From assembly GCA_003963305.1 (NCBI GenBank), contig RXJR01000009.1, positions 62,001-126,000 of the forward strand: a stretch of 64,000 nt of DNA, written 5' to 3'. Shown piece after piece: positions 3,173 through 33,318 of the stretch (within the stretch, counting starts at the first letter, position 1; each line of letters begins with the position of its first letter). Under the pieces are notes generated by a model. That model saw only the letters and a program-made list of their open reading frames with translations. It made no database searches and was not told the DNA's origin. The position numbers and the translations under genes were made by a program. Source of the stretch: Candidatus Melainabacteria bacterium. Its GTDB lineage: Bacteria > Cyanobacteriota > Vampirovibrionia > Obscuribacterales > Obscuribacteraceae.

Positions 3173-5335
3173 TTACTGAGTGATCGTCACCGGACCACTG
3201 ACACTCGCCGTCAGGCTCGAGCTGCCCCAGGCCTCGAAGAAAACGTCGACCACACAGTTTTCAGTCGGCGTAAAGGTGAGCGAATACTGCGTCCACGCCG
3301 TACCGGCAACTGCAGCCACAATATCCGTACCGGGCGAACCGACACCCGGATAGCGGCCGCCTGCGATCTTCAGCTGCGCACTGATACCAGACGCCGCACT
3401 GAGCTGCGCATAGTATTTGATCGTCGTCGGCACACCGGCAGCACAGGGCACCTTGCCCACATTCAGCCGCAAAGGCGAACTGGCAAAAGCATTCGCGTTC
3501 GGCGAGAGCTTCCAGCCACTGCCACCACTCTGACCGGTGACGCCAGTCGTCGTGATCGTGCCGTAGTCGCTGTAGATGCTGTTGTTCGCCACGAGCCCGC
3601 CTTCACGATGAGCGATGACCACATTGCCCGAAGTCTCCCCGGTCGCAGGATCACCAAGAGCCACCTTCGGCGCCGTGCCATTCTGCGTCCAGCTGTAGAT
3701 GATCGCTTCACCTTCGCTGCCGCTCGTGAACTTCACCTGAGTGCCCAGGTTGAAGTTGGTATCGAGCGTGAAGATCTCCACGTAAGCATTGTTCAACTGC
3801 ACCTGCGCGCCCGAGTTGTTCCGAGCCTGCAGGTTATAGCCCACGAAACCATTCATGTTCTGGAAAAGGAAGCCGACCGCAGCACTGCCCGAAGCGTTAT
3901 CATTGGCAGTGTTGTTATAGAAGATGCAGGGGCTGGAGATGTTGAAGCCATTGGTGTTGCCTGTGGTCGAGCCGATCACCGAGCAATCGTGGATGCTGAT
4001 TGCAGGCGATCCCACGTTGGCAGGGACAACGATACCGTCACCGCTAGTATTGCCGATCATCTTCACGAAAGCCAGGCTGTAAGCCACGGCATCAGTGTTG
4101 TAGTTGGTGGTCTGAGGAATGCTCAGACTGCCCGGCGAGTTGAGCACATTCACCGCATTGAACGTGACTGCATGCGCAGGCATTGTGAAAAGACCGCCAC
4201 AATCCGAAATAGTAAAGTTGGAAAGGGTGTAACCCTTCTTCGTCGAACCGTTCAAATTGATAGGCGTGGTAAACCTGGTGAAACCAATACGATCGAGCGT
4301 GACATAGTCACACCCAACCACCAGACCAGCCGTTGCCCCGGCAGCCACACCGTCGAACACAGACAGACCGTTCTGGGTGGTCATGCCGGTCGTATCCCAG
4401 CCGCCCGAAATAATGATCGGGCTGCCGGCCGTGCCGCTCGTTGCACTGTTGAAAGTGTCGGTGATGGCAAGACCACCAACGCCTGCCGCGCTCCTGCTCA
4501 GAGGCTGCAGAATCGAGAGTGCCACCGAACCGGTCGTGCCCGACCAGATACCCTTGGCAGTCACCGCCGACCCCGCACCACCCGTATCGAGTACGACAGC
4601 AGTGCCGTTGATCGACTTGATACCATACCAGGTGGCATTGTCAGACGAGATCAGGCTGTTCAGGGTGAGACAGTTCACCGCCGAAGACGCCTTACAGGCG
4701 ACGATGTCATCAAGGGTGAGAGTCACCGCGCCCGGATCGCTGATGGCGAAGAGCCGGATGCTCTGGATGCTGGCGCCGAAGTTGGCACCGCTGTCGATAG
4801 TGACCAGGTTCCACTGCCCGGCAGCAAGCGCAGGCAGAGTCAGCTGGTTGACAGGCGTCGCACCGGCCGTGTCACTGCACAGGTCGAGCCGAAGCACCCC
4901 GGTCGCCACTGCCACACTCGGCTTCACCCAGAAGGACAGCTGCTGGTAGGTGCTCAGGTTGAGCGCACCGGTGGCGAAGAAAGCCGCCACACCGGTCGTG
5001 AAAGCAGCCGCTATGACCACGTTGACCGCACTGGTGGCGCTCAACTTGCCTGACTGGCTGCCCGTACTGGTGACATTGGTCTTGGGCGACCAGGCTGCAC
5101 CACTGGTGTAGACACTCTGCGTCAGAGCACTGGCCAGCGTCACCGCACTGGACAGATTGGTGAACGTGGCATTGATGCCCGAAGCGGTAGGCGCCCGGCC
5201 CATCACTCGGATCGTGTCGCCAGCGGCCACACCGGCACTGGCAATACCAGCCAGGGTTTTCTTCCGCAGCGCGAAAGTCAAACCGGAGTTGGCATCGTTT
5301 CCGCCGACCTCGTCGACGTATCTTGTAGTTGGCAT
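3173..5335 (-). CDS. Large beta-rich surface or phage-tail-like protein (beta-helix type)
   Basis: The 720-residue protein starts at ATG 5335 behind AAAGGAA; an upstream ATG at 5404 in frame has no ribosome site. The N-terminus (YVDEVGGNDANSGLTFA followed by AAGDTIRVMG) is the opening typical of right-handed parallel beta-helix proteins of pectate-lyase or phage-tail type. Residues about 120-220 look like a jelly-roll carbohydrate-binding segment (LSFWVKPS ... WNLVTIDSG ... LTLDDIVACK). A long Gly/Ser/Thr/Asn-rich repeat region follows, with a further beta-sandwich at the C-terminus. There is no signal peptide, so any export would need a non-Sec route. It heads the run leading into the mini YD protein and Rhs gene. 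Catalytic residues were not identified. Confidence 0.75.
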   Translation of the reverse strand: MPTTRYVDEVGGNDANSGLTFALRKKTLAGIASAGVAAGDTIRVMGRAPTASGINATFTNLSSAVTLASALTQSVYTSGAAWSPKTNVTSTGSQSGKLSATSAVNVVIAAAFTTGVAAFFATGALNLSTYQQLSFWVKPSVAVATGVLRLDLCSDTAGATPVNQLTLPALAAGQWNLVTIDSGANFGASIQSIRLFAISDPGAVTLTLDDIVACKASSAVNCLTLNSLISSDNATWYGIKSINGTAVVLDTGGAGSAVTAKGIWSGTTGSVALSILQPLSRSAAGVGGLAITDTFNSATSGTAGSPIIISGGWDTTGMTTQNGLSVFDGVAAGATAGLVVGCDYVTLDRIGFTRFTTPINLNGSTKKGYTLSNFTISDCGGLFTMPAHAVTFNAVNVLNSPGSLSIPQTTNYNTDAVAYSLAFVKMIGNTSGDGIVVPANVGSPAISIHDCSVIGSTTGNTNGFNISSPCIFYNNTANDNASGSAAVGFLFQNMNGFVGYNLQARNNSGAQVQLNNAYVEIFTLDTNFNLGTQVKFTSGSEGEAIIYSWTQNGTAPKVALGDPATGETSGNVVIAHREGGLVANNSIYSDYGTITTTGVTGQSGGSGWKLSPNANAFASSPLRLNVGKVPCAAGVPTTIKYYAQLSAASGISAQLKIAGGRYPGVGSPGTDIVAAVAGTAWTQYSLTFTPTENCVVDVFFEAWGSSSLTASVSGPVTITQ

Positions 5336-17270: not shown

Positions 17271-17475
17271 GCGCACTAGCTTCATTTGCGTAGTCTTATG
17301 AATTGACGGGTAACTCAACTCCAAAGCCAATTCGCTGGCATTGGCTACGACCCTGTGCGGCCGTCAACGCCGAGAGTCCGAGCCTTCACACCAAAACAGT
17401 GGCATTCATTTTTTCCGTGTCTTTGTCGGAGTTTTGAACGTTTCCATAATATTCCAATTTTCAAGGAGAAGCGCA

Positions 17476-20400
17476 ATGGCTTCCGACAGAGCACTGCGTA
17501 TGCAGGCAATCTTTGGTCATCAATTCGAACAGCTCATTAGCAGAATCAATTTACTGATTCCTGCTGTGCTGGCGTTACTTTTAACACTGTTTGTCCAATC
17601 AAGTGCTAGTGCTCAAGCCGTTACCTGGACGAAGACCGACCTTGGCAGCACCGGAGCCACAGGCACATACAGCTTCAGCTCCGGTACATTCACCATCGCT
17701 GGTGCCGGTAATGGCATCGGCGGCACCGCCGACAATTTCACCTTTGTGAGCACCCCGACCAGCGGCAATGTTGAGCTGATTGCGAAAGTGTCATCGCAAA
17801 CAAATACCAGCAATTACGCCAATGCCGGTCTGATGATCAAGGACACACTGACCTCGAATGGTGCTATGGCGATGGTCGGTGTAACACCCGGTAATGGTGT
17901 TAACTTCACATATCGCACCGCCGATGGAGCAAGCAGCACAACCACACTGGGACCGTCTATTGCCGCGCCTATATATCTTCGGCTGGTGAGAAGTCAAGGA
18001 TCAATTGCCGGATATCAATCCAGCGATGGCATAAATTGGTCTGAGGTTGGCACTTGCCAGTTCAGCCTGCCTGGTGCCTTTTATATTGGTTTCGGCGTCA
18101 CCAGTGCAGTCTCTGGCACACTTAGCACTGCCGTTTTTACTAACGAGAATTTCATGGTGAACGTGCCGCAGCGCAGCGCCAACCTAGCGGCATGGTTTAG
18201 AGCCGACAGCGGTGTCACATACAGTGGCACCAGTGTTTCGCAGATTGTCGACCAGTCAGGCAATGGCAATAATGCCTCACAGTCTACGAGTGCTAAGCAG
18301 CCTACCCTGGTCACATCTGCACTGAATGGCTTACCTGCGATTAATTTCAATGGATCATCACAGTTTCTCGCGCTTGGACCGGGCTTTGCCAATTTCAACT
18401 CAGGCGCAAGTATATTCATCGTCACCAAGCCGACCAGCGTAACAACCAACGTCCGTATCTTCGATTTTGGTAATGGTGCCACCAGCAATAATGTAGCCAT
18501 ATCTGAGACTGCCTCAACAACGGCAAACTTGCTTGTCTACAACGGCAGCACCTCTAGCAGCCTGCCTGCTTCCGGAGCTCTCAGTGCCGGTACATTCTCT
18601 TTGCTCGAAGCTGTGCACAGTGGTTCGGCCACAGCTACGATCTATTCAAACGGGGTGCAAAAAGCTACCGGCGCGATCAACAATATCACCAACATTAATC
18701 GCAGCGGCAATTTCATCGGCACAAACTTCGCTAACAATACTTTTTTCAACGGGCAAATCTGCGAGATGCTCGTTTATTCCGCACCTCTTACGACCACTCA
18801 ACGCATTGCACTGGAAAGCTACTTCCTGAGCAAATACGGGATAGGCAGCGCACCCACACTTAGCGCACCAACCATTACCCCGGGTACAGGAGTTTACTCG
18901 ACCACGACTCCCGTTACGCTCACTGCTGATCCCGGCGCTGCCATTTATTACACCACCAACGGAACCACTCCAACAACATCGTCGAATCTATACAGTGGAC
19001 CATTCAACATCAGCAGCACCTCTACCGTTCAAGCAATTGCCTGGATGACACCTCAGTTTTTCACCAGCAGCAGCGTCTCTTCTGCGATTATTCAGATCGA
19101 TCCGGCCTCAAGTAACGTCAAGAAAACCAACCTCCAGCTCTGGTTAAAGTCAGACCTGGCTGTATCGACCAGTGGCTCAAACGTCACGCAATGGACGGAC
19201 GTCTCTGGCAATAACATGAATGCAACACAGAGCGTATCTGCAAATCGTCCTACACTTGCCGCGAGTGCAATCAACGGACTGCCTGCCATCAACTTTAGTG
19301 GTTCGTCGCAGTTTCTTAACCTGCCCTCGGGATTCTCAAATTTCTCATCTGGTGCCACAATTTTCTTAGTCACTCAACCCAATACGGTTACGGCTAGCGA
19401 TGTTTTCTTCGATTTTGCTACAACAGCTTCCAGCAATAACAACATTATCGCCGCGACCGTTGCTGCCGCTGCCGGAAGCGTCTCTTACAACGCCTTCAAC
19501 GGTAGCACCGGAGGCACCATCACCTCACCGACGGGAGTTTTGGTAGCCAACACTCCCTCGCTTCTGGAATTTACGCAGAACACTTCTACGACCGCAACGA
19601 TATACAACAATGGCGTGCAAGTCGTCCAGGGCAGCGTACAGACCATACCTAACATCACACGCGGCTTTAACGCTATTGGTGAAAATTCTACATTCTCCAC
19701 TGGTTTTCTACACGGCAAAGTTGCTGAAATCCTGGTGTACAACACTCAGCTATCAGCGTCCGATCGCGCAGATGTCGAAGGCTACCTTTTTGCCCGCTAC
19801 GGTCTGAAAGTCGCAGCACCACGTTTCACTCCAGGCACAGGAGTCTACTCCTTGGGCCCGACGGTAGGAATCGTAGCAGACCCAGGCGCAAGTATCTATT
19901 ACACCACAGACGGTAGCACCCCAACAACGGGCTCCACGCCATATACAGGTCCCTTCACAATATCAAGCGCCACTACTCTCAAGGCGATTGCAGTACAATC
20001 ATTTGGCACAAGTGCAGTCTCCAGTATATATATCCAGGTCGACTCAAAGGCAGCTGCAGTACCACGTAGTGGTATCAACCTGTGGCTAATGGGGGACGCC
20101 GGAGTTCTGACCAGTAGTTCAAATGTGACTCAATGGTCTGACTTTTCCGCTAATGACAATCATGCCACACAGAATACCGGCGCGAACAGACCGTCGCTCG
20201 TCACGAACGCAGTCAACAGCCTGCCTGCCGTCGCTTTCAGCGGCTCGTCACAATACCTGCAGCTACCTACGGGTCTAGCCGACTTTACTGCCGGCTCAAC
20301 TGCTTTTGTTGTCACCAAGCCATCCTCTATCGTTAACAACGCTCGCTTTTTCGACTTCGGCAACGGTACAGCCAGCAACAATGTTTATCTGTCAGAGTCT

Positions 20401-23400
20401 ACTTCACCAGCATCTTCAGCAAATTTCTTTGTCTACAGCGGAGCTTCTTCAAGCTCGCTCAATTCGACCGCAAATAAGATCACGGCCGGCTCATATCAAC
20501 TTCTGGAAGTAGTCTCCGGCTCCGGAAGCGCAAGCATTTTTACAAACAATGCACTTGATGCCTCAGGCACCGTATTCAATATTGCCAATACTTCACGCAC
20601 AACAAATTACATTGGCATAGATGCTGCAAAGACGGCTGCGAATTCATACAACGGGCAGATGGCAGAAGTAATTTTGTACAACCGACAGCTCACTGGTTAC
20701 GAACGCGCCGCCGTCGAATCCTATCTACATGCAAAATACAACGTCAACCCATCTCCGACGCTAGATGCGCCAACCTTCTCGCTTCCTGCCGGAGTCTACG
20801 GTAGCACTCAGACGATGGTGCTGAGCCAGGATCTCAACCAGCCGATATATTACACCACAGACGGAACCACTCCCACTACTTCCTCGACCCTTTACGATCC
20901 AAACTCGGGAGGATTCCCAATCTATGGCACCACAACAGTTAAAGCCATATCGGCGGGCTCAAACTACACAACAAGTACCGTATCCAGCGTCACAATCCAG
21001 ATCGATACAAGTACAGCCACTGTCCCCAAATCGGGACTGATCACCTGGCTTAAGGCCGATTTTGGGGTCATAACAAGTGGTTCTAGCGTCACCAACTGGA
21101 CTGATTTCTCCGGAGCTGGCAATAGCGCGAGCCAGGCTACATCTACCAAACAGCCAAGCTTCGTCACCAATGCTGTCAACGGTTTTCCCGCTATAAGCTT
21201 CGATGGCTCATCCGACTACGTACAGTTACCGTCCGGCATGGCTAACTTTACAGGCGGTGCGACCATCTACATCGTGGCAAATCCGTCGTCAATTGTTAAT
21301 GCCAAGAGACTGTTAGATTTTGGCTCGGGCGTCGCAAACAATAACAACCTCACAGTCAGCGAATTTGTGAGCGGGCCCAATAAAGGCACTTCCTTTATCT
21401 CATATAACGGCAGCACTTCCAGCGGTGTATCGTCATCATCAGGGCTTACCGCAAACACCTTCCAGGTGCTTGAGTATTTGCAAAGTTCCAATGGTGGAAC
21501 CCTTTTCACGAACGGTACTGTGACTGCCGCCGGAACAGTGACAAATCCAAATAACGTCACTCGTACAACAAATATTATTGGCGCCGCCTCCTCCGGTACG
21601 GACTGGTTCACAGGCAGTATCGCAGAAATTCTAGTCTACAACACTGCCCTTGATGCAAATGGTCGTGCAGCTGTTGAAACATACCTTCTGAATAAATACG
21701 GCATTAACTCTGCCCCCACCGCCCCTACAATCAGCCCGAACAACCAGGTATTTTCATCCGGTCCACAAACCGTCACGATCACAATCCCGACCGGCAGCCA
21801 GGTGTACTACACCACCAACGGTACCACACCAACAACCAGTTCGACACCGTATTATATCCCGTTCACTGTCAGCAGCTCTGCTCAGGTCCAGGCAATCGCA
21901 GCCTACGGAGCACAAAGCAGCACGGTCGCATCCTCCTTCATTCAAATTGACTCGAGCACTGCCAACGTATCTCGCACGAACATGGCTGTCTGGTTGAAAT
22001 CGGACTTCGGCGTCCGCACCTCAGGCTCAAATGTCACAGACTGGACCGATATGTCCGGTAGTGGCAACACAGCCAGCCAGAGCAATAATGCTAAACGCCC
22101 CACGCTCGTCACTAACGTAGTTAACAGTCTGCCGGCCCTGGCATTCGATGGCGCCACACAGTTCTTGCAATCACCTGCGGGACTGGCTGACTTCACCGCC
22201 GGTGCAACCGCATTCATCGTCACCAAGCCCACTTCAATTGTGAACAACGCTCGCTTCTTCGACTTTGGCAACGGCTCAACCAGCAATAACCTTTATTTCT
22301 CAGAAACGACAGCAAATGGCACAAACCTGTATTCATACAACGGTTCCAGCGCGAGCCATGTCACTTCCGCGAGCGGCGTAACGGCCGGGCAATACCAGAT
22401 CCTTGAGGCATTGCATGACGGCACCGGCGCAGCCTTCCTCTATACAAACGGGGTGCTTGGCGGACAGGGTCTCTTAAATAACATCACCAATATTTCCCGA
22501 TCAGGCAACTTCTTCGGAACGGACTTCGCCAAGGCCCTCTTTTTTAGCGGACAGATGGCTGAAGTAATCATCTACAAATCAGCTATCACACCTGCACAAA
22601 GAGCGACAGTTGAATCGTATCTAGCCGCCAAGTATGCCATTACTTCCATGCCACCGCAGTTCAGCCCTGGTACAGGCGCTTACGCAGCCTCACAGGTTGT
22701 GACAATCACAGCCGACCCTGGTGCAACTATCTATTACACCACAGACGGTAGCACCCCAACGACCGGCTCCACTGTCTACTCAACTCCACTCACTTTGAAC
22801 TCAAACACTATCTTGAAGGCTATTGCCGTACTGAGTTATTCAACCAGCCCGGTCGCAACAGCTTACTTCAACATTGATGCCAACACGAAATCTGTTCCTC
22901 AGACAGGTCTGCAACTGTGGCTGAAGAGTGACTACGGTGTGCAAACCACGGGCTCCTCGCCATTTAACTATCTCTCTCAATGGACGGACTTCTCAGGAAA
23001 CAACAATCACGCTCTGCCAGGCAGCAGCGCACCATTCTTGTCAGCCAATGCCATAAATGGTTTACCTGCAATATTCAATCACGACCTTGTCTCACCACCA
23101 CCTGCTACAGGCACACTCACTCTGCCCTTTGGATTCAGGAACTTTTCGACCGGCGCAAACATTTTCCTTGTCACGAAGTCCCTGAATAGCTCGGTTCCTG
23201 CATACATTTTAGACCTGGGCAACGGTGCCACCAGTGACAATATCAGCGTTCTCTCCACCACCGCTGCCACAACCGCTACGTTCAACTTGTACACAGGCAG
23301 CACAAATCACACACTCAGTGCGACAAACGCACTCCCTGCCAGCGTATTTGAAATCCTCGAAGCGCAGCAGGGAGGAACGACCGGATACATTCAGGGCAAT

Positions 23401-23922
23401 GGTGTCACTGCCTCAGGCGCACTGCCGAATGCCAACAACCTAACTCGCTCGATAAACAGCATATTTACGAACTACAACGCCAGCTCAAGCTTCAAAGGCG
23501 GTCTTGCGGAGGTCCTCGTTTACGACCATGCCCTGTCGAGCGCGGACCGGGCCGCTTTGCTCGCCTACTTGAACACCAAGTATCAGTCCTCAACTCTGAC
23601 CAGCGCACTTGCACCAACAATCGTTCCGGCGACGGGATCTTTCCCGGCCCCCCTGCAAGTGGCAATAAGCGCTCAAGACGATACGAAAATCTATTACACC
23701 ACAGACGGTACTACACCAACCACCGCCTCCACGCTCTACACAGGACCAGTTAGCGTCTACTTCACACAAACTGTCAAGGCCCTGGCTGTCCAGAACAGCA
23801 CTGGTGCTCAAAGCAGCGTCACGTCAAATACCTACACTCTCGATGCCAACCAGTGGCCCGCGCCTTCCGCTGGCGGACCACCACTGCAGCTGAATCTGCA
23901 ACTGCCTACGACTACTCAATAA
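17476..23922 (+). CDS. Giant secreted protein with six LamG-like and six chitobiase-C-type modules
   Basis: The protein has 2148 residues from ATG 17476, which follows AAGGAG; the frame upstream to 17341 has no site. A signal peptide with a long charged N-region ends near VQSSASAQA (residue about 47). Residues 48-230 resemble a DUF1349/concanavalin-like domain. Then six modules of about 280 residues follow. Each has a LamG-like lectin fold (openings such as LWLKSDFGV, middles such as GLPAINFNGSSQF, ends such as AEVLVYNRQL) and a CHB_HEX_C_1 domain carrying YYTTDGTTPTTSS. The C-terminus is short and proline-rich. It is probably a surface adhesin or glycan-binding protein. The Rhs gene starts 15 bases after its stop, so the two are likely one operon. 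Confidence 0.85.
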   Translation: MASDRALRMQAIFGHQFEQLISRINLLIPAVLALLLTLFVQSSASAQAVTWTKTDLGSTGATGTYSFSSGTFTIAGAGNGIGGTADNFTFVSTPTSGNVELIAKVSSQTNTSNYANAGLMIKDTLTSNGAMAMVGVTPGNGVNFTYRTADGASSTTTLGPSIAAPIYLRLVRSQGSIAGYQSSDGINWSEVGTCQFSLPGAFYIGFGVTSAVSGTLSTAVFTNENFMVNVPQRSANLAAWFRADSGVTYSGTSVSQIVDQSGNGNNASQSTSAKQPTLVTSALNGLPAINFNGSSQFLALGPGFANFNSGASIFIVTKPTSVTTNVRIFDFGNGATSNNVAISETASTTANLLVYNGSTSSSLPASGALSAGTFSLLEAVHSGSATATIYSNGVQKATGAINNITNINRSGNFIGTNFANNTFFNGQICEMLVYSAPLTTTQRIALESYFLSKYGIGSAPTLSAPTITPGTGVYSTTTPVTLTADPGAAIYYTTNGTTPTTSSNLYSGPFNISSTSTVQAIAWMTPQFFTSSSVSSAIIQIDPASSNVKKTNLQLWLKSDLAVSTSGSNVTQWTDVSGNNMNATQSVSANRPTLAASAINGLPAINFSGSSQFLNLPSGFSNFSSGATIFLVTQPNTVTASDVFFDFATTASSNNNIIAATVAAAAGSVSYNAFNGSTGGTITSPTGVLVANTPSLLEFTQNTSTTATIYNNGVQVVQGSVQTIPNITRGFNAIGENSTFSTGFLHGKVAEILVYNTQLSASDRADVEGYLFARYGLKVAAPRFTPGTGVYSLGPTVGIVADPGASIYYTTDGSTPTTGSTPYTGPFTISSATTLKAIAVQSFGTSAVSSIYIQVDSKAAAVPRSGINLWLMGDAGVLTSSSNVTQWSDFSANDNHATQNTGANRPSLVTNAVNSLPAVAFSGSSQYLQLPTGLADFTAGSTAFVVTKPSSIVNNARFFDFGNGTASNNVYLSESTSPASSANFFVYSGASSSSLNSTANKITAGSYQLLEVVSGSGSASIFTNNALDASGTVFNIANTSRTTNYIGIDAAKTAANSYNGQMAEVILYNRQLTGYERAAVESYLHAKYNVNPSPTLDAPTFSLPAGVYGSTQTMVLSQDLNQPIYYTTDGTTPTTSSTLYDPNSGGFPIYGTTTVKAISAGSNYTTSTVSSVTIQIDTSTATVPKSGLITWLKADFGVITSGSSVTNWTDFSGAGNSASQATSTKQPSFVTNAVNGFPAISFDGSSDYVQLPSGMANFTGGATIYIVANPSSIVNAKRLLDFGSGVANNNNLTVSEFVSGPNKGTSFISYNGSTSSGVSSSSGLTANTFQVLEYLQSSNGGTLFTNGTVTAAGTVTNPNNVTRTTNIIGAASSGTDWFTGSIAEILVYNTALDANGRAAVETYLLNKYGINSAPTAPTISPNNQVFSSGPQTVTITIPTGSQVYYTTNGTTPTTSSTPYYIPFTVSSSAQVQAIAAYGAQSSTVASSFIQIDSSTANVSRTNMAVWLKSDFGVRTSGSNVTDWTDMSGSGNTASQSNNAKRPTLVTNVVNSLPALAFDGATQFLQSPAGLADFTAGATAFIVTKPTSIVNNARFFDFGNGSTSNNLYFSETTANGTNLYSYNGSSASHVTSASGVTAGQYQILEALHDGTGAAFLYTNGVLGGQGLLNNITNISRSGNFFGTDFAKALFFSGQMAEVIIYKSAITPAQRATVESYLAAKYAITSMPPQFSPGTGAYAASQVVTITADPGATIYYTTDGSTPTTGSTVYSTPLTLNSNTILKAIAVLSYSTSPVATAYFNIDANTKSVPQTGLQLWLKSDYGVQTTGSSPFNYLSQWTDFSGNNNHALPGSSAPFLSANAINGLPAIFNHDLVSPPPATGTLTLPFGFRNFSTGANIFLVTKSLNSSVPAYILDLGNGATSDNISVLSTTAATTATFNLYTGSTNHTLSATNALPASVFEILEAQQGGTTGYIQGNGVTASGALPNANNLTRSINSIFTNYNASSSFKGGLAEVLVYDHALSSADRAALLAYLNTKYQSSTLTSALAPTIVPATGSFPAPLQVAISAQDDTKIYYTTDGTTPTTASTLYTGPVSVYFTQTVKALAVQNSTGAQSSVTSNTYTLDANQWPAPSAGGPPLQLNLQLPTTTQ

Positions 23923-23937
23923 CCAGAGACTCACATC

Positions 23938-26900
23938 ATGCAAGCTCGATACTCTTTATTCACACAACAAATCCGCCGCGCCACAAGCTGGCTAATGCTG
24001 ACTTTGCTGACTTTCACAAGTCCCTTGCAGACGGCGGTTGCAGGCACGCTCGTCCACCACGACTTGCCAATACCGCCAGCGGTGCAGGCAATTCTCGATC
24101 AACAAGCAAAGGAGAACAAGCCGAGCCGTTCGGTATCAGTGCATAAAGGTAGTCGCAAGATCACTATAGTAAAACCAACACTGGGGTTTTCCAGTGCACC
24201 GTCTGACCTCGAACTTTCGACGGCGCGAATCTTTGCAGAACCACTGATACCACTCGAGATTCAACCTGTGGAAGGTGAAAATACTGCACTGGCAAAGGCG
24301 CTGACTGATTTTTTGCATAAGGAAAGCAGAGAAGACATCTCTGACCTGACCAGCTTCATCTCGAAGTTCCCTGAATCGCGCTGGCTCGCTGCGCTCGAAT
24401 TAAACATGGGATTGAACCGTTTTGAGACCGGTTATTTGAAAGATGCGCTCAGGTTTTTCAACTCGGCCTGGGAATTATCCAAAACACAAAAACGTCAGCA
24501 GCAAAAACTCATGGCTGATCGCGCGGTTGCCGAGCTGCTTCAGCTTGACGCGCGTCTGGGTCGTATGGACGAACTGAAGGAACTGTTTGCTGCGATCAAG
24601 GGACGCGGTATGCAGGGCTCAAACGAGCAGAAAGTAACCGCTGCGCGCGAGGGTCTCATGAAAATGACCTACGACCCAGGCAACGCATTTTTGTGCGGAC
24701 CTTCTGCCGTGAACGCACTCCTGTACAGGGGAAAACAGCTCGGCCAGAGCCCTATTGTTAAGGCAACAAAATCTACCATTCGCGGAACGAACCTTCAGCA
24801 GTGCAAAGAGCTTGCTGACAAAGTCGGTCTGCACCTGCAAGCAGCAAAGAGAACTGCAGGAGCTGAATTTATTGTCCCGGCTGTTATGCACTGGAACACA
24901 GACCATTTTTGCGCAATCACATCCTTGAATAGACGGCGATATCAACTACAAGATTCAACGTTCGATATCAACTCAAATGCCTGGGTGTCGGCCCAGGCTC
25001 TGGAAGCGGGCTCAGATGGCTACTTCCTCGTACCGGCAGGCCAGCTTCCGAAAGGATGGCAGCCAGTTTCCGAAGACGAGGCAAAGAATGTCTGGGGCAA
25101 AGGAAATTCGGGAGGACGCAATCCTGAGCAAGGCCCTTGCTGCCCTGCCACTACCCCTGGAGCAGTTTGCCCCAAACTGCCACCATGCAAAGGCATGCCT
25201 CAACCATATGCTCAAACGCTCAACGCCACGCTGAACATGGTTGATACTCCCATGAGCTACAATCCGCCCGTCGGACCGGTCATGGATACAACATTAGTCT
25301 ACAAATACCTGGAGATAAACCAGCCCGCTAATTTTACTTTTGCCAATTTCGGTCCGGACTGGGCATACAACTGGATTTCTTATCTAACTGTAGATGCCTC
25401 TCAAAATGCCACAGTAATGGTGCGCGGCGGTGGCGCCGAACGTTTCCCTTACACTTTACCTGACAACGTTAGCAACCCATACCCACCTAACGTCAGCTCC
25501 CAGGCGATTTTGACGATCGCTGATGACGGCGTATACAGGCGCCTTCTTCCAAGCGGCGAAGTTGAAGTCTTCAACCAACCAGATGGCACCGGGCGAATCT
25601 TCATGACTCAGGTCATTGACCGGCATGGAAATTCGACTGTCATCCAATATGATGCGAATTTCCGCCTCACCTCTGTCACGGACGCCCTCAGTCAAGTCAC
25701 ATCATTCACGTACGTATCAAATACGATCGGCAATGTCGGCTATTACAAAATTTCTCGCATAACAGATCCGTTCAGTCGCTTCGTTTCATTTGCCTATGAC
25801 TCAACCGCCTCCGTGATGACTTCGATCACCGATGTCGTCTCAAACCTTTCCACGTTCACAACCGACAGCGGAACGTCGTTTATAAGCGCGCTCACAACTC
25901 CTTATGGCACAACTTCCTTCTATCAGTACGTGCCACCACAAGATATTTTGCAACCACCTGCTGTCGGACTGCGATTCACATTCCCAGACGGCAGCAGCGC
26001 TGTTTTAGAAAATTGGGCATCCGAGACCAAGTCTAGTTATTACTGGGATCGTGAGGCGACTGCATTGTATCCAAATGACCCCGACAATAAAGTCTACAGT
26101 CACTGCACTACTACCAAGTTTCTATTGGACCCGGCAACCGGTCTGACCAGCCCGGTCATAAGTTTCATCAAGCCTCCGCTTGAAAGCGGGATCGACTATT
26201 TAACCGAGGGACAGAGCGGCAACTTTGTCGGCACAAGCAATAACCCTATTCAAATCTCTCGTCAAATGGACGACGGCAACACGCAGAATTATTTCTATAC
26301 ATATAACAAATTCGGCAAGGTGACTAAGTCAACAGACCCTGTTGGAAGAACCTTCTCCTATCTATATGCCGCAAACAGCATTGATCTGTTGGAAATACGG
26401 CAAACACGCTCTGGTAACAACGACCTGATTGGAAAGTGGGAGTTCAACAACGACAAACATCTGCCCAATTTGTATATTGACGGCTCAGGACAGCATACTC
26501 AGTACGCATACAACAGCTTCGGCGAATTGACTCAAGTCACTGATGCAAATAGCAACGTCTGGACACGCGCTTACGATGGCAACGGTTATTTAACACAAAC
26601 TGACGGTCCATTATCTGGAAACAAGGACGTAAGCAGCTTTACTTACGATTCATATGGGAGATTGCTTACGAGCACGGACTCTGAAGGTTATACGCTTACC
26701 TTTAGCTACGATGCGCTCAACCGCCCCACTCTCACAGCTTATCCAGACGGCACAACTGAACAGACGGTCTGGAATAAGCTGGATGCGATTTTGAGAAAAG
26801 ACCGCATCGGACGTTGGACGCAAGACTCATACAACTCTATGGGTCAAATCGCGTTTGAAATGGATGCACTCGGCCGTAAAACAAAGTATGCCTGGTGCAA

Positions 26901-29900
26901 TTGTGGCTCGCTAGCTACACTGACCGATCCGACAGGCAACATCACCACATGGCACCACGATTTAGAGGGGCGCCAGATCGAAAAGGTGTATCAGGACAGC
27001 ACCACCGTCGACTACGTCTATGAAAATAACACCAGTCGCCTCAAATCAAAGACTGATGCACTCAATCAAACAACGAATTATAGTTACAACCTGGATAATT
27101 CACTCGCGCAGAAGAGCTACACCAACGCAGTTAACCCCACATCGACAGTTAACTACACATATGACGCCAACTACAATCGTCTTTCAACAATTCAAAACGG
27201 CTGGGGAACATATAGCTACAGCTACAATGCTTATGTTACAGACCCTTACGCGGCGCCCACTACAGGTGGTGGCAGATTGTCCACGGTCACTAACAATGTC
27301 ATTCCAAATTCAGCAGTTTCTTATTCATATGACGCCCTGGGAAGAACAACAAATCGCTCAATAGACGGCGCGAACAATTCAATCACTTGGTCTTATGATG
27401 CCATGAACCGTATTACATCCGAGGCAAATGCTCTCGGAACGTTCAACTACACGTATGTGGACGACCAGAGCGGTAGCTCAAAAGGCACCACAAGGCTCTC
27501 TGCAATCGCCTACCCGAATAGCCAGGTGACTAATTTTAGCTATTACGACAACCTGGGTGACCAGCGTTTGCAACAAATATGTAACTTGAAAAGCGATGGC
27601 ACTGCTCTTTCTCAATTCAGCTACGGCTATGACCCGGCTGGTCAGATCACACAATGGCAACAACAACAGGCTGGAAACAATCAAAACGGACATTATGCCT
27701 ATGATTTAGCCGGACAACTTATCACTGCGCAATCCGGCAATACAAACCTGCCTCCTGCATATTGCAGTCAGAATTATTATGCTTACGATAGCGCCGCAAA
27801 CAGAACTGCCAGTCAGCAAAGCACTAGTAAAACCGTGCGACTCGGCGGCAGTATCACTGCCAGTGATGTCCTCACCCTGACCGTGACCGACTCAGGTCTA
27901 TCCAGTCCTGAAAACGTGTCGTACACAGTCCAACCAGGGGACACACTCACATCGGCTGCTGCTCAACTGGCCGCTGCCATAACGCTGAACACAAATTTGC
28001 AGACACTTGGTGTCAATGCCACGTCAAACGGAAGCAATTTGTTCGTCAAGTCAGTCTCACCCAATATCACAACCTACTCATCGTCACTCAGTGGCGGAGC
28101 AACAGAAACCATTGCAATCGGTATCAATACAAACACGCTCGAATTAGCCTCCATCGGCGGCACTAAAACGACCGGGGACGTGTTGACGATAACAGTGCAC
28201 GATCCAGCGCTCAGTGGTGGAAGCTCATCAGCATCCTATACGGTACTGGTGGGTGATAATTTGAGCACTATCGCCTCGGGTCTGGCGTCGGCAATTAACG
28301 CCAATTCAAACCTATCCACTCTTGGTATGACGGCAACTTCGTCAGGTCAAGTAATTCGTGTCGCGTCCACATCAGCGAACACAACCACATACACTCAGAG
28401 CGAAAACACTGGTGCTACAGAAACAATCGTATTTGGCATCAGCCCAAATGCCCCGGCTCATGTAATGATCGCTGGCAGTAAAACTACGGGCGATGTCCTT
28501 ACTGTCACGGTCTACGACCCAGGTTTGAGCGGTGGCTCCCAGGCAGTTTCATACACAGTCTTATCAGGCGACACACTTGCATCGATGACAGCAGGACTGA
28601 GCGCGGCCATAAATGGTAATTCTAACCTCCAGACTCTGGGAGTCAGTTCAACCAGTGCGAATCAAATAATTACGATTAACTCCGTTTCTACAAAGTCGAC
28701 TTCGTTTAGAGGCACAGCAAACGTTGGTGCGTCTGAAACCATAACCGTCGGCATCAATGCTAATGGTGCTCAAACAGCGGCCCTGTCCGGCGCGGTAACC
28801 GTCGGAGATACTGTCTCTGTCATCGTCAACGATGCTGCTCTGCCTGGCGGCTCTAAAACCAAAACATATACAGCTGCGTCCGGCAACACACTTTCCAGCA
28901 TCAGCAGCGGTCTGGCATCAGCAATCAATGCCGACACTGATTTATCCGCTGCCGGTATTACGGCAACTGCAGTCGGCGCTGTTCTAAACATCACCTCGCA
29001 ATCGGTAAACACCACTACTTATTCCACTTCAACCAGCGGTGGTGCGACTGAAACTATTTCTCTCGCCAAAAGCACTAGTGTCACTCAATTCGGCTACAAC
29101 AACGTCAATGAGCTTACCTCCACATCTGGGGGCGGCGCCACGCGTTTTGAAGGCTATACGAACAAAGCAATCAAATCAGCAACTGTCAACGCCAATCCAG
29201 TTACGTTAGATTCCAGCCTGCACTTTAATGGCAATGCAACATTATCCTCCGGCAACAACACGGCAACAGTTGCAGGTACAGATGGCAACAACAACACAAC
29301 TTCCAACAATTATGCCGTTTCAGTTAAGGGCGGAGCAAACTCATCGCTCACTTATGACCTGAATGGCAACCTAACCAATGATGGCACCAACACTTACTCC
29401 TGGGACGCCGAAAACAGGATGATCAAGATAACTTATCCGGGGGTGAATAATTATTCGACTTTCGGATATGACGGACTGAGCAGAAACATTTCGATTGTTG
29501 AGACTACGGCTGGGTCTGTGACTTCGACAAAACAATTCGTTCGAGCCGGTCTAAAGGCACATCGCCTTCAGCCTATGGAAGAAAGAGATGCAAGTGGCAC
29601 ATTGATTAAGAAATTTTTCCAGCTAGGACAAATCAACAGTGCAACCAAGTATTTCTATGCACACGACCATCACCTATCTGTTGTAGAGTTGACAGATAAC
29701 AGTGGCAGTATACTCGCCGATTATGCTTTCGATCCCTTTGGTCAGTCAACGAAGACCAATGCTGCCGTGGATTCAGATTTTGGATACGCAGCCTATTATG
29801 TTCATGCCCGTAGTGGCTTAAACCTCGCTCTCTTTCGAGCATATAAAGCTGCTGTCGCCCGATGGATAAATCGAGATCCTATAATGGAAAAAGGTGGCAT

Positions 29901-30168
29901 CAACCTTTACAGCTATGTGGGAAATATTCCTATCAAGTGGACTGATCCATTGGGATTGTTGATTTGCCATGATGACGAATGGCATGATTGTGCAAGAAGA
30001 TGCAATAAGTTCGGACCGGGCACTCCAGAATATAAGCGATGTATGTTCGTATGTCTAAAACAAGGGTCCCCAGGCTGGAACGACTGTGCATTTGAGTGCG
30101 AAGGGTTAGGACGTTGGACCCCTGAGTGGATTAATTGTATGTATGAATGCCTAGGCGGAGAAGATTAG
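23938..30168 (+). CDS. Secreted Rhs/YD-repeat protein with papain-like domain, inserted 4-fold repeats and Cys-rich tip
   Basis: The 2076-residue protein starts at ATG 23938 without a clear ribosome site, 15 bases after the preceding gene, suggesting coupled translation. A Sec signal ends near residue 36. Residues about 60-240 are helical, and residues 245-380 form a C39/papain-like peptidase domain with candidate triad Cys253 (LCGPSA), His323 (DHFCAI) and Asp339 (QDSTF). YD repeats run from about 430. They are interrupted at about 1300-1715 by four tandem repeats of about 100 residues, each containing VTVxDxxLSGGS and SYTVxxGDTL. The Rhs core ends with RDPIMEKGGINLYSYVGN then DPLGL. The last 65 residues carry four CxxxC pairs and are the position of a variable toxin in this family; no known toxin motif is visible. 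Confidence 0.9.
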   Translation: MQARYSLFTQQIRRATSWLMLTLLTFTSPLQTAVAGTLVHHDLPIPPAVQAILDQQAKENKPSRSVSVHKGSRKITIVKPTLGFSSAPSDLELSTARIFAEPLIPLEIQPVEGENTALAKALTDFLHKESREDISDLTSFISKFPESRWLAALELNMGLNRFETGYLKDALRFFNSAWELSKTQKRQQQKLMADRAVAELLQLDARLGRMDELKELFAAIKGRGMQGSNEQKVTAAREGLMKMTYDPGNAFLCGPSAVNALLYRGKQLGQSPIVKATKSTIRGTNLQQCKELADKVGLHLQAAKRTAGAEFIVPAVMHWNTDHFCAITSLNRRRYQLQDSTFDINSNAWVSAQALEAGSDGYFLVPAGQLPKGWQPVSEDEAKNVWGKGNSGGRNPEQGPCCPATTPGAVCPKLPPCKGMPQPYAQTLNATLNMVDTPMSYNPPVGPVMDTTLVYKYLEINQPANFTFANFGPDWAYNWISYLTVDASQNATVMVRGGGAERFPYTLPDNVSNPYPPNVSSQAILTIADDGVYRRLLPSGEVEVFNQPDGTGRIFMTQVIDRHGNSTVIQYDANFRLTSVTDALSQVTSFTYVSNTIGNVGYYKISRITDPFSRFVSFAYDSTASVMTSITDVVSNLSTFTTDSGTSFISALTTPYGTTSFYQYVPPQDILQPPAVGLRFTFPDGSSAVLENWASETKSSYYWDREATALYPNDPDNKVYSHCTTTKFLLDPATGLTSPVISFIKPPLESGIDYLTEGQSGNFVGTSNNPIQISRQMDDGNTQNYFYTYNKFGKVTKSTDPVGRTFSYLYAANSIDLLEIRQTRSGNNDLIGKWEFNNDKHLPNLYIDGSGQHTQYAYNSFGELTQVTDANSNVWTRAYDGNGYLTQTDGPLSGNKDVSSFTYDSYGRLLTSTDSEGYTLTFSYDALNRPTLTAYPDGTTEQTVWNKLDAILRKDRIGRWTQDSYNSMGQIAFEMDALGRKTKYAWCNCGSLATLTDPTGNITTWHHDLEGRQIEKVYQDSTTVDYVYENNTSRLKSKTDALNQTTNYSYNLDNSLAQKSYTNAVNPTSTVNYTYDANYNRLSTIQNGWGTYSYSYNAYVTDPYAAPTTGGGRLSTVTNNVIPNSAVSYSYDALGRTTNRSIDGANNSITWSYDAMNRITSEANALGTFNYTYVDDQSGSSKGTTRLSAIAYPNSQVTNFSYYDNLGDQRLQQICNLKSDGTALSQFSYGYDPAGQITQWQQQQAGNNQNGHYAYDLAGQLITAQSGNTNLPPAYCSQNYYAYDSAANRTASQQSTSKTVRLGGSITASDVLTLTVTDSGLSSPENVSYTVQPGDTLTSAAAQLAAAITLNTNLQTLGVNATSNGSNLFVKSVSPNITTYSSSLSGGATETIAIGINTNTLELASIGGTKTTGDVLTITVHDPALSGGSSSASYTVLVGDNLSTIASGLASAINANSNLSTLGMTATSSGQVIRVASTSANTTTYTQSENTGATETIVFGISPNAPAHVMIAGSKTTGDVLTVTVYDPGLSGGSQAVSYTVLSGDTLASMTAGLSAAINGNSNLQTLGVSSTSANQIITINSVSTKSTSFRGTANVGASETITVGINANGAQTAALSGAVTVGDTVSVIVNDAALPGGSKTKTYTAASGNTLSSISSGLASAINADTDLSAAGITATAVGAVLNITSQSVNTTTYSTSTSGGATETISLAKSTSVTQFGYNNVNELTSTSGGGATRFEGYTNKAIKSATVNANPVTLDSSLHFNGNATLSSGNNTATVAGTDGNNNTTSNNYAVSVKGGANSSLTYDLNGNLTNDGTNTYSWDAENRMIKITYPGVNNYSTFGYDGLSRNISIVETTAGSVTSTKQFVRAGLKAHRLQPMEERDASGTLIKKFFQLGQINSATKYFYAHDHHLSVVELTDNSGSILADYAFDPFGQSTKTNAAVDSDFGYAAYYVHARSGLNLALFRAYKAAVARWINRDPIMEKGGINLYSYVGNIPIKWTDPLGLLICHDDEWHDCARRCNKFGPGTPEYKRCMFVCLKQGSPGWNDCAFECEGLGRWTPEWINCMYECLGGED

Positions 30169-30228
30169 ACGTATTGATTGGAAGCGTAAGGACTAACATA
30201 GAAGAGTGGCTCTGGAAGGATCAAAGTT

Positions 30229-30846
30229 ATGTTTGAGCAATTTACCGAACCGGCAATCAACTCTATAGAATTCGCTCATGAAGAAGCGTACTTCTTAGGT
30301 CTGGATCTAATCGACACCGAACATGTGCTTTTGGGATTGGTTTCTGAAGACGAAGAACGAATAGGGCTGCTTCTAGGTGACCAGAAAATTTTGGCAGCAG
30401 CCGTTCAGGCGTTGGTGTTGGACCGAGCACAACGAAAAAGAACGCAGACCAATCAAACCAAGAGATTTGAGGAAGTAGTGTTTAACAAAGAGGTGAACGA
30501 AATCCTAAAGCTCGCAGCTAAAACAGCTGTTGGTTTGGAACACGTTGGCACTGAACATTTGCTAATAAGCCTTATAACACATGGTGAAAGCAAGCCGCTA
30601 TTTAAAGAACTTGGCTTAAGCACAAACGATTTGCCTCATGAAATAGAATCTAGATTGAGTGTAATTTCGAAAGCGAATACCAAGAAATCGGCAATCGACA
30701 AAATCAATGTGATCGAGAGGCGCATCGCGACGTGGACGCGTCGGGTTGAACAGTGCCGCCAATTAGGCTTGCTCGAGCTTGAGCAAGAAACAAACAAAAT
30801 CAAATCGACATGGGAATCAGAATTCTCCAAACGGAATAAGGGGTAA
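30229..30846 (+). CDS. Stand-alone ClpC-type N-domain protein
   Basis: The 205-residue protein starts at ATG 30229 with GGAAGGA upstream, 61 bases after the Rhs stop. It carries both halves of the Clp N-terminal double repeat. Residues 1-48 show MFEQFTEPAINSIEFAHEEA and IDTEHVLLGLV, and residues about 85-145 show NEILKLAAKTA and GTEHLLISLI. The C-terminal 60 residues are helical and resemble a UVR-type hairpin. No AAA+ module is present. In ClpC the N-domain binds adaptors and substrates, so a free copy could act as an adaptor or competitor. Its place directly behind the Rhs tip makes it a candidate immunity or handling partner, which is inference only. Confidence 0.8.
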   Translation: MFEQFTEPAINSIEFAHEEAYFLGLDLIDTEHVLLGLVSEDEERIGLLLGDQKILAAAVQALVLDRAQRKRTQTNQTKRFEEVVFNKEVNEILKLAAKTAVGLEHVGTEHLLISLITHGESKPLFKELGLSTNDLPHEIESRLSVISKANTKKSAIDKINVIERRIATWTRRVEQCRQLGLLELEQETNKIKSTWESEFSKRNKG

Positions 30847-31088: not shown

Positions 31089-32429
31089 ATGGATAGTACT
31101 GTTGATGGCATTATCCTTTCGTTCTTCAAAACGATACACACAGTCTACATTAGTGGGGTAGTTTTCTTGCCACGTCTGACAGCAAAATTCATCGACGAAA
31201 ATGTGCGTCGTCCATGCCAGGGACAAAAGATAATACGAGATGACGATTTGAAGGGATTTGGATTGCGTGTGACCAAGGGGTCGATGTCCTGGATTGCCGA
31301 GGTTAGGGTTGATGGCAAGCTCAAGCGACTGACGCTGGGCAAGTACGAGCTGATGGCACCTGAACAAGCCCGAAACGATTGCAGGAAGCTCTTGCAGCGC
31401 CATGCTTTGAATGAGCAAATACAAGCCATTCCAACTCTGAGTCAGGTACAGTCAAGGTATCTGGAGGTTCGCAGTCTCAGCAAAAACACACTGAGAAACT
31501 ACATCAATCTGACGAAGAGATGCCTTGGAGATTGGTATGAGCTGCCAATCACCAGCATCACGAAAGACATGGTGTTAGCTCGCCATCGAGAATTAACACG
31601 AACGACGCAGCAGAAATCATCTGGAAAAACTCAGGCTAATATGGCTATGAGTAACTTGAATAGCCTTTTCCGATTTGCGATTCACCACTACGAAAGCGAA
31701 GATGGAACACCGTTGATCGTGTCCAATCCTGTAGTGACTCTTTCGCAGAACAGAGTCTGGCATCGAACCGGCGTCAGGCGAGTTATCATCCCCGACCACA
31801 AGTTGTCTGATTGGTATCAGGCGGTTTTATCGCTGAGACAGAAAATGATTCGAGATTACCTTCTGGTCCTGATTCTGACTGGTCTGAGAAAAAATGAAGC
31901 GGCAAGTCTTAGATGGACCGATATCGACTTTGAGTGCAAGACTCTGACGATTCGTGCCGAGAACACGAAGAATCAAAACGAATACAGCTTGCCCATGAGC
32001 GAGTTTCTCGTGGCGATTATGCGTCGTCGAAAGCTCGATCCGCGCAAGTCGGATTTCGTCTTTCCTGGACGTGAGGGGCATCTCGTTGATCCCAAGCATT
32101 GCCTTGAACACGTCATTGACCGGAGTGAATGTGATTTTGTCTTGCATGACTTGAGAAGAACGTTTATAACCGCTGCTGCAAAACTGGGCATCCCTCACAA
32201 TTTGATCAAGAAACTTGTAAACCATGTGTCTGTGGCAGACGTGACCGACGGCTACATCAGTCTGCAAGTTGAGCATCTGCGCGCCCCAATGGAGCAGATT
32301 ACCAATCACTTCTTGAATCTATTTGGATACGACGAAAAGCAGTGGGATGAAGCTCTTCTTCGGACAGGGAAAGAAGTAATTGATTTGAATAGCCTTTTCG
32401 AGGACCTTCTCCATGCGATTAGCTTTTAG
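31089..32429 (+). CDS. Tyrosine recombinase / integrase
   Basis: The protein has 446 residues from ATG 31089. A TTG at 31167 behind GGGGTAG would give the more usual family start (PRLTAKFIDENVRR). The N-terminal arm-binding domain shows GFGLRVTKGSMSWIAEVRVDGK. Next is a SAM-like core-binding domain (residues about 140-230). The catalytic residues, counted from 31089, are Arg267 (GLRKNEAASLRW), His353 and Arg356 (HDLRRT), His379 (VNHVS) and Tyr389 (DGYI), so the enzyme looks intact. It probably drives integration and excision of the element to its right. A damaged piece of the same gene lies at 33219-33318. Confidence 0.92.
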   Translation: MDSTVDGIILSFFKTIHTVYISGVVFLPRLTAKFIDENVRRPCQGQKIIRDDDLKGFGLRVTKGSMSWIAEVRVDGKLKRLTLGKYELMAPEQARNDCRKLLQRHALNEQIQAIPTLSQVQSRYLEVRSLSKNTLRNYINLTKRCLGDWYELPITSITKDMVLARHRELTRTTQQKSSGKTQANMAMSNLNSLFRFAIHHYESEDGTPLIVSNPVVTLSQNRVWHRTGVRRVIIPDHKLSDWYQAVLSLRQKMIRDYLLVLILTGLRKNEAASLRWTDIDFECKTLTIRAENTKNQNEYSLPMSEFLVAIMRRRKLDPRKSDFVFPGREGHLVDPKHCLEHVIDRSECDFVLHDLRRTFITAAAKLGIPHNLIKKLVNHVSVADVTDGYISLQVEHLRAPMEQITNHFLNLFGYDEKQWDEALLRTGKEVIDLNSLFEDLLHAISF

Positions 32430-32856
32430 GCGCTACGACGAACTTCCAAACGACTATGCTTATCCACTCGACAAACTCGATATATCAAAATTTGCCGATT
32501 CATTCCTTCAAGAATGTGCCGCTGTTGTAGATTTCGAGTACTTTGAAAATACATCTGATGTGCTTCTCGTCAGTACTCGATGGGATTCAGCAACGAATTT
32601 ATGGTCATTGAGGGTAATAGCGGCGCTCAAGGACGAAGTGGCTCAAATTCACCAAACCTTCATACAAAGCATCTTTCCTGAGCTGCAAGAATGGATGTGC
32701 GCTATCACGACTGAGCTGAATAGAAATCCAGAGCTTTGGACGAACTATGACTGCATTTATAAGTTTGAGAATTTCGAGCTCATCTCAACCAAATATAAAG
32801 CCGAGAGAAAATTCAGACGTCCACCACCTCGTAGCTCCATCGATTTTATGTTTTGA
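32413..32856 (+). CDS. Hypothetical protein overlapping the integrase 3' end
   Basis: A 147-residue protein starts at ATG 32413, inside the last 17 bases of the integrase gene, which implies translational coupling. Composition is protein-like and acidic in the first part (LDKLDISKFADSFLQEC then VVDFEYFENTSDVLLVSTRW), ending in a basic tail (KAERKFRRPPPRSSID). There is no signal peptide or membrane segment. It may be a small regulator or an accessory protein carried with the integrase. I do not recognise the family. Confidence 0.6.
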   Translation: MRLAFRRYDELPNDYAYPLDKLDISKFADSFLQECAAVVDFEYFENTSDVLLVSTRWDSATNLWSLRVIAALKDEVAQIHQTFIQSIFPELQEWMCAITTELNRNPELWTNYDCIYKFENFELISTKYKAERKFRRPPPRSSIDFMF

Positions 32857-32971: not shown

Positions 32972-33318
32972 TACCTGGCATCAGCAGTCAATGCTGACAC
33001 TGACTTATCCGCTGCCGGTATTGCAGCCACTGCAGTCCGCGCTGTTCTAAACATTGGCTCTCAATCGGTAAACGCTACGACCTTTTCCACTTCAACCAGT
33101 GGCGGCGCGTCAGAAACCATTTCTCTCGCCAAAAGCACTAGCGTCACTCAATTCGGCTACAACAACGTCAACGAGCTTACCTCCACTTCCGGAGGAGGCG
33201 CCGCGCGTTTTGAAGGGCGGTTCGCACTCTCAGCAAAAACACACTGAGAACTACATCAATCTGACAAAGTGATACCTTGGAGATTGGTATGAGCTGCCGA
33301 TGATCAGCATCACTAAAT
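32972..33318 (+). pseudogene. Chimeric scar: Rhs repeat fragment fused to an integrase fragment
   Basis: Bases 32972-33217 closely match 28912-29150 of the Rhs gene, covering the end of its fourth inserted repeat and the start of the next YD repeat. At 33219 the sequence switches without a gap to a diverged copy of the integrase gene (31467-31562), with a one-base deletion and an in-frame stop. Both parts are non-functional. The scar marks the left boundary of the mobile element genes. Confidence 0.85.

Follow-up and report, generated by a model that had tools for sequence, protein, structure and literature searches.

An integrase-linked Rhs locus with a Cys-rich tip and a candidate site for cassette exchange inside rhs in Obscuribacterales

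The Rhs gene, its tip and the partner gene

The stretch of DNA analysed here (the window) comprises 64 kb of a 7.5 Mb genome. Its sequence presents, in order, an att-like site within an rhs gene, the Rhs core, a Cys-rich tip, a partner gene and an integrase of the clade that accompanies Rhs genes in relatives (Table 1). The Rhs protein is matched by PF05593 (E=6e-35) and TIGR03696 (E=4e-18), and its RHS/YD repeats, with an Rhs_assc_core ending in DPxGL (here DPLGL) ahead of a variable tip, are those of the Rhs polymorphic toxins. The gene directly upstream (17341-23922) encodes a 2193-aa protein, probably at the cell surface, in which lectin-like (LamG-type) segments and TTDGSTPT segments recur.

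Table 1. Features of the Rhs locus in the window
Feature	Position	Strand	Description
Full-length Rhs gene	23938..30168	+	Intact, 2076 aa; signal-peptide-like start, YD/RHS repeats, variable tip
Rhs_assc_core	aa 1931-2007 of the Rhs protein		
Putative att site in the rhs reading frame	29426..29441	+	AGATAACTTATCCGGG; start point of orphan Rhs 3' fragments in relatives
Cys-rich tip	29959..30165	+	69 aa after DPLGL; LICHDDEWHDCARRCNKFGPGTPEYKRCMFVCLKQGSPGWNDCAFECEGLGRWTPEWINCMYECLGGED
Partner gene	30229..30846	+	205 aa; double Clp_N region (aa 1-140), C-terminal helical hairpin (aa 152-205)
Tyrosine integrase	31089..32429	+	Carries Arm-DNA-bind_3; true start probably TTG 31167
147-aa ORF	32413..32856	+	Overlaps integrase end; no family match
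Remnant or scar	32975..33317	+	88% copy of Rhs 28912-29153 joined to 90% copy of integrase 31463-31565

The four CxxxC pairs reported by an earlier, sequence-only reading are present in the tip, where CARRC, CMFVC, CAFEC and CMYEC begin at residues 11, 28, 43 and 60. The tip comprises two copies of W-x2-CX3C-X12-CM-x2-C, with the first W replaced by Y in one inner helix. Of 200,000 shuffled versions of the tip, 48 contain four CxxxC pairs; none of 3,321 other 69-residue stretches does. Single-sequence AlphaFold2 modelling returns four helices, one per CxxxC, with a pLDDT of 88.9 reached by two of five models and lower values in the rest. Searched by itself, the tip gave no significant match in Pfam, NCBIfam, PDB sequences or plasmids and fell into no toxin family, and a search of 382 genomes of the class returned weak chance matches only, in unrelated frames. 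A fold search of the model against the PDB and viral models was likewise without a significant match, the rows for Luffin P1 and VP35 being weak; because all fold matches are weak, the tip is assigned to no fold family. An alpha-hairpinin is a helical hairpin of the form CX3C-Xn-CX3C with two disulfides; the tip has the spacing CX3C-X12-CX3C twice and a four-helix model, with weak fold matches and putative disulfides. In the favored model the tip would form a pair of disulfide-stapled helical hairpins resembling alpha-hairpinins, and it would be a small effector acting outside the cytosol.

The partner gene follows the Rhs gene after 60 bp. As the same reading had proposed, it encodes only a double Clp N-domain and a helical hairpin: Pfam Clp_N matches two stretches (E=3.5e-10), forming a tandem repeat; residues 1-138 match solved ClpC N-domains (E~1e-11); and the last ~50 residues are a predicted hairpin. 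The 205-aa protein lacks the AAA+ ATPase domains of ClpC/ClpB chaperones. Neither is a full-length PspA or Snf7 domain found in it, the similarity to PspA/ESCRT-III proteins being confined to the hairpin stretch. That likeness is detected only in the proteins of relatives, at E values from 5e-6 to 2e-3 that all fall below curated cut-offs (L289 hairpin, 5e-6 against Snf7 and 2e-4 against PspA/IM30; L056 hairpin, 0.0015). Acidic residues E32 and E106 of the window protein align with both phosphoarginine-site glutamates, which are missing from most Rhs-linked Clp_N genes. PADLOC reported nothing relevant.

Pairing of tips and partner genes among relatives

The survey of Rhs tips covered 100 Rhs 3' regions taken from the family's genomes, together with locus L056, 101 in all. 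The tips are highly diverse, and from locus to locus a different tip comes with a different gene directly behind it, the position and co-variation that characterize Rhs immunity genes. A Clp_N gene directly follows the tip at five of the 101 (the window, L056, L123, L108 and L102) against 0.14 expected, a figure derived from 334 Clp_N matches in 281 Mb with 1.15 kb per gene assumed; the excess has P=4e-7, or 1e-5 when two homologous loci are merged. Clp_N genes also lie slightly further from the tip at L114, L113 and L138. Between L108 and L102 the tips are 54% and the Clp_N proteins 73% identical; both members are homologous, and such pairs therefore move or are inherited together.

A profile built from three rows of the CX3C hairpin unit was searched over 50 genomes of the family and rose above noise at exactly three Rhs tips: the window, L056 and G033:C164 (L289), the last of which also follows an Rhs junction (DPSGL|GGDWAWCKSYCDQYANSSALAWLICMMWCMDN). 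Each of these tips is followed by a hairpin gene, for which the chance rate is ~4e-4 per gene. At L289 this gene (3594-3872) encodes the hairpin alone, without Clp_N, and is 48% identical to the C-terminus of the L056 partner. Since the hairpin is found in all three partners and Clp_N in two, the hairpin is the constant part and Clp_N the variable one. Clp_N also follows unrelated tips (L102, L108 and L123), and it accompanies other tip types without the hairpin. Partner genes thus look, from their sequences, like mixtures of modules.

These results modify the sequence-only reading, which had paired the Cys-rich tip with a ClpN gene as a putative partner of proteolysis-adaptor type. That the tip and the next gene travel together, with Clp_N after tips well above expectation, is upheld; Clp_N as the defining partner is rejected, given the same-type tip of L289 with a hairpin-only partner and the unrelated tips that Clp_N follows. 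The observations that would have spoken against that reading are seen in part: free Clp_N paralogs away from Rhs occur in nearly every relative, but no close ortholog of the window Clp_N gene was found in GTDB contigs. The hairpin could not be treated as a purely Rhs-linked module either: hairpin-only proteins occur widely away from Rhs, and for this reason the hairpin alone is not diagnostic.

Several further observations concern these modules. One hairpin-only protein of the source genome (L293 6784-6987; G000:C9 about 137.8 kb) has no Rhs gene nearby and is possibly an orphan antidote. Small proteins at L289 3594-3872, L297 3776-4075 and L300 3365-4240 share the C-terminal tail RVPxxPxPxxGxGxxALPLP, and most of them have the hairpin. 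Clp_N is hugely expanded in the family, with giant 1640-aa proteins of many Clp_N repeats at L063 and G031:C11:14496-21425. Other Rhs tips (L084 114-1163, L146 1765-2799 and L167 3723-4898) contain the phospholipase A2-like motif CCxxHDxC or one related to it, an assignment by motif only, and an integrase of the same clade lies downstream of two of these.

The linked integrase and a fixed junction within rhs

The integrase downstream of the partner gene, which lay outside the earlier reading, is matched by Pfam Phage_integrase (E=6e-19). Its likely catalytic residues R267, K294, H353, R356, H379 and Y389 occupy invariant alignment columns and complete the R-K-H-R-H-Y set of tyrosine recombinases. 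When Rhs-linked integrases were aligned and the alignment scanned against GTDB, 80 loci were returned. The integrase adjoins Rhs 3' ends in 13/13 of the closest relatives (46-50% identical, all Melainabacteria/Obscuribacterales MAGs) and in 0/67 of the more distant ones, from Legionella, Colwellia, Geobacter and others. The integrases of the Snodgrassella and Gilliamella Rhs arrays were not among the loci returned. In arrays, an Rhs 3' part is followed by tip, partner and integrase, and then by a further Rhs 3' part.

In relatives, orphan Rhs 3' fragments have a common starting point in the gene. Their tblastn starts cluster at residues 1828-1830 of the window Rhs protein, and blastn alignments of window DNA to them start at 29405-29426. 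The motif at this point, which has a single match in the window, encodes [K/E]-I-x-YPG directly after WDAENR. Among the copies collected, 31 were intact and 24 had unrelated upstream DNA; 20 of these 24, from nine genomes and four genera, run on into Rhs code, and these 20 displaced fragments share one start nucleotide (window 29426). Identity to the intact consensus is 0.27 upstream of the motif in orphans vs 0.80 in intact rhs, and 0.61 vs 0.68 downstream, these averages including four chance matches (L071, L078, L131 and L178:12999). The upstream flanks of the orphans fall into several unrelated groups. The junction follows the integrase stop by 121 bp (L079), 122 bp (L174), 123 bp (L092) or 135 bp (L090), and at L178 a motif copy without Rhs code behind it lies ~122 bp after the stop.

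The conserved right end of the cassettes, GCAC-N8-GTGC (14 bp; AGATNGATTA), is matched exactly six times in 281 Mb, each time at a locus of this kind. Most right ends come from one genus (g23), and the cassettes of relatives lie in fragmented MAGs. A looser pattern allowing two mismatches gave noise only. Additional DNA separates the integrase from the right end at L108, L171 and L177; toxin-antitoxin-like gene pairs were seen in this interval at L171 5869-6578 and L108 2814-3460, as in large integrons. Orphan starts at residue 1836 (L087 and L104) were rejected as att sites, since by eye they look like 3' ends of group II introns; an intron of this type appears to lie within rhs here, with its 3' end ahead of the Rhs 3' fragment (L087 about 5520, minus strand; L104 about 230).

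The fixed junction is thus seen in relatives, and the window keeps only the rhs-side site. No conserved right end follows the window integrase, and the window cassette is therefore incomplete. The remnant at 32975-33317 has the composition of a scar that would be left by a deletion inside a former tandem Rhs-integrase unit. Neither an empty site nor a circular form was seen. One fixed junction, a linked integrase clade and a near-constant distance from stop to site together point to an att site inside rhs and to integrase-driven exchange of tip-immunity cassettes.

A model of cassette exchange, its alternatives and known systems

The locus is quite probably part of a toxin-tip recombination system, an integron-like arsenal of the Obscuribacterales in which the integrase carried by each cassette would exchange and stack Rhs core-tip-immunity units at an in-frame att site in rhs. 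Acting at this fixed site, the integrase would recombine cassettes, so that a new unit of core, tip, immunity gene and integrase would join the resident rhs 5' part in frame, at a junction that would lie at AGATNNNTTAYCC, and the previous rhs 3' part would be displaced downstream as an orphan. The partner is likely the immunity protein of the tip, as judged from synteny. It would neutralise the tip in the producer cell, most likely via the C-terminal hairpin, the only part common to all three partners of the tip type. Clp_N would serve as an accessory, perhaps contributing binding or dimerisation or a link to ClpC. The joint reading, in which a toxin-tip cassette exchanged by the integrase at the rhs site combines an effector tip with a partner that is its antidote via the hairpin, is favored with some confidence. 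A fusion of tip and partner folded as a single chain gave no usable model (pLDDT 41).

Other roles for the pair have been considered. Mycobacterial ClpC2 is a molecular sponge (PMC10030653), and antibacterial peptides kill through the ClpC N-domain (PMC12583610). The tip might similarly poison ClpC via its N-domain, with the free Clp_N as a decoy that soaks it up in the manner of ClpC2 and cyclomarin, and the two glutamates retained in the window protein would suit this; such a decoy is nevertheless improbable, given the L289 partner without Clp_N, the loss of both glutamates from most Rhs-linked Clp_N genes, and the expected reduction of a disulfide-type tip in the cytosol, the compartment of ClpC. 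Small helical proteins also act as Rhs chaperones in T6SS systems, where they serve conserved N-terminal parts. The partner, whose hairpin is a protein-binding type of element, could accordingly be a chaperone or an export or assembly factor of the Rhs protein and no antidote, a role made quite unlikely by a post-tip gene that changes with the tip. The tip itself may be no toxin but a tail for binding, adhesion or metal coordination, whose four CxxxC pairs could hold copper or zinc, beside an unrelated neighbor, as the tip's lack of a toxin family match and the abundance of free Clp_N and hairpin genes in the family would allow; yet pairing in three of three cases far exceeds chance and tips in the same position elsewhere include enzyme-like ones (by the phospholipase A2-like motif only), leaving this a doubtful reading.

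The origin of the orphans has been explained differently in other bacteria. C-terminal displacement and orphan tips in Rhs/T6SS arrays are ascribed to homologous or illegitimate recombination (PMC5361080), and integrase-like genes occur near Rhs in bee gut bacteria, where their role was left open (PMC5727410). XerC/D genes near polyimmunity loci are also noted in the literature. With such a mechanism proposed for other arrays (PMC5361080, PMC5727410), the integrase of the window could be a passenger among recombination fragments. Homologous exchange, however, predicts neither an exact junction with unrelated upstream DNA in nine genomes nor a nearly invariant spacing from the integrase stop, and a passenger integrase has little likelihood. 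An integrase that inserts cassettes at a fixed site in the gene of this giant surface protein would give bacteria a site-specific means of exchanging toxin tips, and with a fixed junction and a dedicated integrase the means by which Rhs toxins gain tips and leave orphans becomes directly testable.

Several known systems resemble parts of this locus. Alpha-hairpinins such as Luffin P1 (2l37) likewise consist of two helices with twin CX3C; the fold match to the tip is weak (E=8; Z 2.6) and is no evidence of homology, and in the tip two such units form the end of an Rhs protein. A tip-hairpin pair of this kind would be a very small effector-antidote pair. Mycobacterial ClpC2, which controls the expression of its own gene and sponges up cyclomarin (PMC10030653), is likewise a free Clp_N protein without an AAA+ domain. 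Unlike ClpC2, the Clp_N gene of the window lies in a toxin cassette and also encodes a hairpin, and a hairpin-only protein can take its place; this Clp_N add-on offers a way to test the recruitment of the ClpC N-domain fold into toxin immunity. Integrons and shufflons rely on a tyrosine recombinase that rearranges cassettes or the C-termini of proteins at short sites. The window integrase differs from theirs in its arm-DNA-binding domain and in being carried by each cassette, and its presumed site lies within the coding sequence of the toxin gene; no description of an att site inside rhs was found in the open-access literature. The Rhs arrays of S. alvi (PMC5727410), Salmonella (PMC3967940) and V. 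cholerae (PMC5361080) likewise consist of a full rhs gene followed by displaced core, tip and immunity units. Recombination in those arrays has been put to homology or left open, whereas the loci described here show a single fixed junction within rhs that goes with one integrase clade.
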